Positions 41,390 to 41,851 of a DNA stretch of 64,000 nucleotides are shown in pieces (within the stretch, counting starts at the first letter, position 1; every line of letters begins with the position of its first letter). Position numbers and translations under genes: made by a program. The notes beneath the pieces are model-generated. The model was given only the letters and a program-made list of their open reading frames with translations, had not been told where the DNA came from and did no database searches. Source of the DNA: Pelotomaculum isophthalicicum JI (lineage in GTDB: Bacteria > Bacillota > Desulfotomaculia > Desulfotomaculales > Pelotomaculaceae); NCBI RefSeq assembly GCF_029478095.1, contig NZ_JAKOAV010000005.1:62001-126000 (forward strand). The letters are read 5' to 3'.

Positions 41390-41515
41390 GCGGATAATCC
41401 GTTGGCGACTGTTGACAGGTCCTGTTGGTAGCAATAGAATGGGAGAGGCAGTTTATTGGGAGAAATAAGGAGGTTGTAAGTAGTTAAATAAAAGTATGTA
41501 AAGAACAATGATCCG

Positions 41516-41545
41516 TTGACACGAACACCTGTTCTATTTTATAAT
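41516..41545 (+). promoter_or_regulatory. Consensus promoter with LexA-type (SOS) box in the spacer
   Basis: TTGACA (41516-41521), 18-base spacer, TATAAT (41540-41545): both hexamers are perfect. The spacer contains GAACACCTGTTC (41523-41534) within CGAAC-N4-GTTCT, matching the Gram-positive LexA operator CGAAC-N4-GTTCG in all but the last base. A DNA-damage-controlled promoter is therefore likely. Confidence 0.7.
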
Positions 41546-41566
41546 AGATACAGGAGGTGAGTGCAT

Positions 41567-41581
41567 ATGAGTATTAAGTAA
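41567..41581 (+). other. Four-codon ORF with strong ribosome-binding site
   Basis: CAGGAGGTGA is followed by ATG 41567 and the frame M-S-I-K-stop. It may be a leader peptide or the remains of an SOS-controlled gene. Confidence 0.3.
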
Positions 41582-41603
41582 TAATTAGAGAGGAAAGGTT
41601 TCT

Positions 41604-41666
41604 ATGCAGTTACATCCGATGATGCGTCGCTTTAGCCTCGCGGTGAAAGTCGGGCGCGGAGGTTAA
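41604..41666 (+). CDS. Possible 20-residue peptide
   Basis: GAGAGGAAAGG (41588-41598) lies five bases before ATG 41604; the frame gives MQLHPMMRRFSLAVKVGRGG and stops. It could equally be part of the structured RNA. Confidence 0.25.
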   Translation: MQLHPMMRRFSLAVKVGRGG

Positions 41667-41851
41667 ATCAACCAGGCGGTGGGTAACACCCCCTTCCGGG
41701 CAGAACTGTAAAGCCAGGCGGCATCTCTGCCACCCGGAATATGGACGAGAGTCCATAGCTGAGCAGTTGAATCCTGTGAAACTGCCTCCCGCTTAGTCGG
41801 ACGGGAGAGAATCTAACAAATGATTTGTTTAGATTCCAGAAACCAGGAGTT

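Follow-up and report, generated by a model that had tools for sequence, protein, structure and literature searches.

A putative non-autonomous IS607-type element with a LexA-like boxed promoter and a predicted TnpB guide-RNA scaffold upstream of pyrG in Pelotomaculum isophthalicicum

Results

An inserted element in the argS–pyrG gap

We analysed a window of 64,000 nucleotides of the Pelotomaculum isophthalicicum JI genome, in which the CTP synthase gene pyrG is preceded by argS and by ORFs upstream of argS (37350-39537) that resemble gas-vesicle genes (gvpN, gvpF/L). The argS–pyrG gap contains a promoter native to pyrG and, downstream of it, a second promoter followed by a series of hairpins (Table 1). 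The sequence from 41474 to 41847 is one of five copies of an element in this genome; the other four are 80–93% identical to the window copy, and each precedes a different gene. Alignment of the copies together with their flanks fixed the ends at GGAGG/TTGTAAG... on the left and ...CAGAAACCAGG/ on the right (slashes mark junctions). The same alignment of the five genomic copies shows that the left end of the window copy is shortened, and this copy may therefore be immobile.

Table 1 Features of the argS–pyrG gap and of the element inserted in it (window coordinates)
Feature	Position	Strand	Evidence
Native pyrG promoter TTGACA-17-TAGAAT, 11/12 match, outside the element	41412-41440	+	Also before pyrG in element-free G001
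GGAGG: original pyrG Shine–Dalgarno (SD) sequence, insertion site and TAM-like motif	41469-41473	+	G001 empty site; borders other left ends
ORF-less IS607-type element, 374 nt, shortened left end	41474-41847	+	Five genomic copies, empty site
Element promoter TTGACA-18-TATAAT, 12/12 match	41516-41545	+	tnpA promoter at equivalent position in full-length elements
LexA-like operator GAACACCTGTTC within the promoter spacer	41523-41534	+	GAACN4GTTC in 5/5 own copies; resembles recA upstream sites
SD and four-codon ORF MSIK (ORF 41567-41581)	41552-41581	+	tnpA start at same position
omegaRNA/reRNA-like scaffold	41594-41847	+	Covariation; follows tnpB in the full-length elements
5′ strand of long-range closing helix, GGTTTCT, predicted to pair with 41838-41844	41597-41603	+	Consensus fold of short copies
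20-codon ORF, SD-like sequence upstream	41604-41666	+	Not supported
Hairpin TATGGAC-GAGA-GTCCATA, strongest covariation	41740-41757	+	Helix 4: double changes in 6/7 pairs
Conserved hairpin GCAGT-TGAATCCTGTGAA-ACTGC, loop nearly invariant	41763-41785	+	Helix 5
Hairpin CTCCCG...CGGGAG	41786-41807	+	Helix 6: double changes in 5/6 pairs
Right-end hairpin without U tract, not a terminator	41810-41835	+	Helix 7
Right end AGAAACCAGG; AGG, substitute SD for pyrG; GG, presumed IS607 core	41838-41847	+	Near-invariant among copies
Predicted 20-nt guide, start of pyrG	41848-41867	+	IS607 reRNA anatomy in the excerpted texts of PMC11061315 and PMC10711439
pyrG (CTP synthase), gene downstream of the insertion	41852-43462	+	ORF; matches in 31/31 genomes searched

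The empty site is preserved in a genome of the same genus (G001, PyrG 98% identical), where the gap lacks the element and reads ATAAGGAGG/AGTTTATGG, that is AAGGAGG/AGTTTATGG at the junction, and where the TTGACA-17-TAGAAT promoter is kept. The element was thus placed exactly between the SD sequence of pyrG and its ATG. An earlier note on this DNA had described a leader of pyrG with hairpins continuing up to the start codon; the hairpins are real and covary (see below), but the unit that contains them begins right after GGAGG and stops at the right end of the element rather than at the ATG. Nor does it belong to pyrG: in 25 readable argS–pyrG gaps the element occurs only in that of the window (0 of the 24 others), and copies stand before four other genes. 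We also rejected a riboswitch or attenuator specific to pyrG: the repeat is dispersed, its site is empty in G001, and we found no + strand terminator.

GG stands at both junctions (GGAGG/...CCAGG/), and the pyrG site carries no target duplication, as at IS607 ends. We interpret the window element as derived from an IS607-family transposon, in a MITE-like form that is not autonomous; copy number and empty site suggest that TnpA would mobilise it in trans.

After the survey of the 25 gaps, another conspecific genome, G112, proved to carry the pyrG insertion in identical form, along with three of the four further insertions. Between the two genomes there are 0 differences over a 379-nt span across the element and 32 in 1222 flanking nt. 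Such a pattern, together with a structured RNA that abuts the SD sequence, could indicate that the RNA has been domesticated as a cis-regulatory leader of pyrG and of the four other genes. We consider this improbable: the genes downstream of the insertions are unrelated, the element is missing at pyrG in 24 readable relatives, and other loci common to the two genomes are 99.6–100% identical overall, so that the differences in the flanks look like recombination within pyrG and not like constraint on the element. Within pyrG, 28 differing sites between the two conspecific genomes fall at window positions 41935-42511 (comparison with L185) while the adjoining sequence is identical, which suggests recombination within the gene.

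A covarying RNA at the 3′ end of the element

We aligned 22 copies of the RNA and scored base pairing and compensatory change in the named structure. In this alignment, 95.9% of cells pair, and double changes occur in 18 of 36 pairs, compared with 9.0 (sd 1.7) in shuffles, and in 75 cells, compared with 20.8; the shuffle control ignores the relatedness of the copies. Controls in which the structure is slid along the same alignment keep this relatedness, and they collapse; the structure is favoured over its slid versions because it was derived from the consensus fold of the same alignment. The strongly covarying RNA comprises the 3′ 250 nt of the element. The long-range helix (5′ GGTTTCT, 3′ AGAAACC) is nearly invariant, and covariation can therefore not test it. 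The conserved, covarying stems that the earlier note named as support are thus present among the copies.

An Rfam scan was likewise suggested in the note. At the gathering thresholds and at E ≤ 10 we obtained either no match or chance matches only, and the RNA is absent from Rfam; in particular, neither the window element nor two full-length RNAs matched RAGATH-18 at E ≤ 10. Readings as a group I or group II intron or as HEARO were dropped, as neither had an Rfam match. The RNA is present in 34 of 113 genomes and, by automatic tally, in 20 of 55 genera of the order; contigs of P. propionicicum are among those that carry it.

Full-length relatives encode TnpA and a TnpB-like protein

The full-length relatives carry an IS607-type tnpA and a divergent tnpB, with the RNA directly 3′ of these genes; in several genomes it immediately follows the TnpB-like gene and extends to the element's right end. 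An apparently complete element is found in G112 and consists of a left end after GAGGAGG, a promoter with GAACACACGTTC, tnpA, tnpB, the RNA and CAGAAACCAGG. Its TnpA (219 aa) matches NF033518 with E 2.5e-60 and 203 bits, above the cut-off of 110. Its TnpB-like protein (481 aa) matches guided_TnpB with E 3.5e-15 and 56.2 bits, below the curated cut-off of 100. A first AlphaFold model of the protein had a mean pLDDT of 44; in a model with a mean pLDDT of 66.9, residues 3-264 align with AsCas12f (Z 13.7, 3.7 Å over 170) and residues 272-420 with RuvC (Z 12.9, 3.0 Å over 134). This model thus shows a Cas12f/TnpB-like REC/WED and RuvC fold. A profile of three of these TnpBs matched no solved chain, and profile comparison with the other TnpB of the window's own genome was negative.

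The earlier note could not assign the structure to a known class. The RNA of the short form is homologous in sequence to that of the full-length elements, and we assign it to the guide-RNA end of an IS607/TnpB-type transposon. The most plausible reading is a TnpB omegaRNA/reRNA that stands alone and is predicted to bind TnpB and guide cleavage; very likely it forms the scaffold of an omegaRNA whose guide would be the start of pyrG.

In the active site of the TnpBs, D279 and E340 are invariant, whereas all seven aligned proteins have another residue in place of the third RuvC Asp (SNH[EQ]AA; SNH/STH). The D-E-D triad is thus incomplete, and no zinc-ribbon cysteines or CxxC pair were seen in the aligned TnpBs. 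The sub-threshold score, the replaced Asp and the missing cysteines make nuclease activity uncertain. A TnpB lineage with these two alterations, the third RuvC Asp replaced and the zinc-ribbon cysteines lost, is represented by L254:2512-3954 (-) and its relatives. If the cognate lineage were nuclease-dead, the guide RNA could serve RNA-guided repression in the manner of TldR, with the short elements acting as guide donors; the replaced Asp in all seven proteins and guides that start at gene starts would agree with this. The first two acidic residues of RuvC are nevertheless invariant, and insertion destroys the TAM-plus-guide target in the carrier, so that nothing there is left to repress. We regard TldR-like repression as quite unlikely.

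In the window's own genome we found neither a tnpB of the element's family nor an IS607 transposase over the cut-off. Any nuclease-guiding role of the RNA is therefore idle here unless the nuclease is supplied. In viral contigs, we obtained 0 matches to the pattern and no relatives of the tnpB.

Short forms with and without the boxed promoter

The short element corresponds to the full element minus nearly all of tnpA and tnpB. Most short copies show the promoter and an SD sequence leading to a start codon, a stop four codons on, and then the scaffold. The short ORF reads MSIK, MSVK, MIVK, MRVK or MRIK in most copies and MNV in the C10 copy, and it is plausibly a relic of the tnpA start, to judge from its position. 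Of 12 short-element rows, only 2 have the ATG of the 20-codon ORF (the window and G008b), and this ORF is incidental. The earlier note had listed both ORFs, the longer one as possible, with good ribosome-binding sites: both are present with SD-like sequences, and the longer one is not conserved.

The promoter-bearing short form occurs in other genera too (G003, G005, G008, G019, G075, L224). A second short form consists of the left end, SD sequence and RNA and has no boxed promoter (L053, L189, L235). Three short copies in G003 at different loci (L081, L021, L043) carry ~87 nt of extra sequence at the same place inside the RNA. This is apparently one common nested palindromic insertion, seen in full in L021 and L081; its presence at different loci implies that the short copies have moved.

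These copies bear on whether the element is simply decayed, non-functional transposon debris in which structure and box persist by descent only. The shortened left end of the window copy and the lack of a family tnpB and of an IS607 tnpA over the cut-off in its genome are what such debris would look like. Against it stand the compensatory changes between copies, the G003 copies that apparently moved with their shared nested insertion, and the occurrence of the promoter-bearing short form in several genera. We regard debris as doubtful.

Most insertion sites coincide with Shine–Dalgarno sequences

We determined the position of the element ends relative to SD sequences and start codons. GGAGG lies within a 16-nt window at the left end in 38 of 47 automatic calls (control 1.5%). 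Among the nine misses, we judged seven to be false left ends lying within coding sequence (L016, L051, L064, L068, L077, L191, L204) and two to be real variants (L018, L192). An ORF start codon follows 3–13 nt downstream, mostly 7–8 nt, in 55 of 77 distinct right ends (random control 12.3%). In sampled sequence, 15–19% of GGAGG words are so placed before a start codon; we infer that either purging of insertions within genes or tolerance through the AGG SD supplied by the element end must add to target choice. One site is of a different kind: the right flank of the autonomous copy in G112 lies inside an ORF at GTGGAGG/ATACTCCC. This locus is empty in the window's genome, where the left flank differs.

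According to the available excerpts of published work, (i) IS607 TnpA inserts at GG without target duplication (PMC6188088), (ii) IS607 TnpBs needed an AGGAG TAM in 18 of 22 strains (PMC11061315) and (iii) the nucleotide that is fixed in the right flank of one IS607 system forms part of the scaffold (PMC10711439). Within the scope of these excerpts, the three properties fit the insertion sites observed here.

A LexA-like box in the promoter of the element

The perfect promoter reported in the earlier note is confirmed, and it is the only one in the window (1 observed, 0.035 expected from dinucleotide shuffles), far beyond chance. A column-conservation count of the promoter was discarded because the search pattern required the half-sites and picked up host sites.

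The near-perfect LexA operator that the note had placed in the spacer is likewise present and resembles the probable LexA operator of the clade, as judged from recA sites. GAACN4GTTC occurs once in the window; 0.785 occurrences are expected from dinucleotide shuffles, and the box alone is therefore not beyond chance. What counts is its recurrence in the other copies, and all five copies of the genome have it. Eight of 10 related genomes have CGAACN4GTT[CT] upstream of recA (none was seen in G042 and G019), and the genome's own lexA has CGAACTTATGTTT, with one mismatch. In form, the box thus corresponds to the operator of the clade's SOS genes. Across the genome, the exact word GAACN4GTTC is not enriched (35 occurrences, 58 for a reversed control pattern). 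A weight matrix of recA boxes does not single out the window site, whose score is reached in 9 of 20 shuffles of the 64 kb; the best match to this matrix in the window is CGAAAATATGTTTT at 16023-16036.

Among tnpA promoters, the box is present in 7 of 8 of one lineage (MEKLLTSHQ type) and in 0 of 11 of other lineages. This association with one TnpA lineage is what would be expected if the palindrome were the operator of the element's own TnpA, which has a MerR-type DNA-binding domain, or of another repressor that is not LexA; the promoter would then be autoregulated by the transposon and unrelated to DNA damage. The half-sites, spacing and flanking C are, however, those of the recA upstream sites of the same clade, the box is still perfect in the short copies of a genome that yielded no IS607 transposase above the cut-off, and boxes in this genome also precede recA and genes for a TIGR03916 repair protein, TnsA and an unrelated TnpB. 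We therefore consider a TnpA operator unlikely. LexA control of the element promoter is likely on the strength of these sequence matches.

Several further genes of the genome have such boxes. The TIGR03916 radical-SAM DNA repair-type gene (L134:961-2289 (-), C13) has GAACATATGTTC upstream and is a plausible member of the SOS regulon. The box word of the window element lies before the start codon of a TnsA-like endonuclease gene of Tn7 type (L136:1686-2519 (-), C15), on the opposite strand relative to the element's. A serine recombinase gene (L138:1353-1991 (-), C42) is located downstream of a small ORF with a GAACAGATGTTC box. The unrelated TnpB-family gene (L137:972-2174 (-), C18; guided_TnpB E 1.2e-48) has GAACACATGTTC ~80 nt upstream and is possibly a second SOS-boxed TnpB.

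Discussion

Taken as a whole, the locus is best explained, and we hold this with good confidence, by an IS607 derivative that carries a boxed promoter and a standalone TnpB guide RNA and that lies in front of pyrG. IS607, TnpB guide RNAs and non-autonomous elements are known kinds. Standalone omegaRNAs and MITE/PATE derivatives of IS200/IS605 elements are likewise known, and they too are gene-less, carry a guide scaffold and would need a nuclease in trans; the window element differs in being of IS607 type and in having retained a LexA-like boxed promoter from tnpA. Mobile-element genes under LexA control are exemplified by integron integrases, in which the recombinase promoter contains an SOS box, whereas the box described here would control a TnpB-type transposon together with its guide RNA. 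With IS607-family transposons, defined by the serine recombinase TnpA, a GG core and the absence of target duplication, the element shares the GG ends, the duplication-free site at pyrG and, through its full-length relative, an IS607 TnpA; it differs in having no ORF and in sitting mostly in SD sequences.

Compared with IS607 TnpB and its RAGATH-18-derived reRNA, as far as they are described in the excerpts of PMC11061315, the RNA likewise lies 3′ of tnpB and extends to the right end, and an AG-rich TAM (AGGAG) likewise adjoins the left end. In contrast to the system in those excerpts, the RNA has no Rfam match to RAGATH-18 and also occurs standalone behind its own promoter, and the TnpB of the relative is longer (481 aa; average 390 aa), with an altered RuvC-III and no zinc-ribbon cysteines. 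PMC9956272 contains none of the terms for non-autonomous forms for which its text was searched. The combination of a LexA-like box, no genes, a standalone guide scaffold and an SD target is undescribed in the titles and abstract openings of the literature searched, and a guide-RNA element at SD sites that has a LexA-like box and no nuclease appears to be new.

We propose the following mechanism. The element keeps the left end, the tnpA promoter with its presumed LexA-type operator, a stub of tnpA and the whole guide-RNA scaffold. Upon cleavage of LexA, the promoter would produce the scaffold, and the beginning of the gene downstream would be transcribed with it as guide. An autonomous copy, as is found in the conspecific genome G112 and is absent here, would provide TnpB in trans; the protein would use this guide RNA to cut empty alleles at AGGAG(G) plus guide, and the element would be copied back. 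As a side effect, pyrG would obtain a second promoter, one that is probably inducible by the SOS response, and a replacement SD sequence (AGG) from the element end. A damage-induced guide RNA for re-homing by TnpB in trans, along with SOS-boosted transcription of pyrG, is thus possible. Only tentatively do we extend this to a nuclease-free, SOS-induced homing element that a borrowed TnpB drives into SD sites, timed to DNA damage, an extension we regard as less probable than its failure.

The earlier note had also proposed DNA-damage control of CTP supply, or an SOS-induced small RNA or peptide. Dedicated control of CTP supply finds no support, since other copies precede other genes and the 24 other readable pyrG gaps lack the element; an SOS-inducible promoter may have reached pyrG by chance. 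A small RNA under SOS induction is a fair description of what the sequence predicts, and the 20-codon peptide is not conserved.

If homing of this kind occurs, production of the guide RNA would coincide with active recombination repair, and each insertion would give the downstream gene a damage-inducible promoter and a ready-made SD sequence. A TAM that is itself an SD sequence, combined with an end that supplies an SD sequence, would explain how such elements persist upstream of essential genes and distribute inducible promoters. Two groups are defined here as well: a guide-RNA family that has not been curated, present in 34 of 113 genomes of a single bacterial order, and a lineage of TnpBs whose RuvC site is altered. 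If the proposal is true, TnpB/omegaRNA biology would be tied to the SOS response, and guide RNAs would spread without a nuclease gene.
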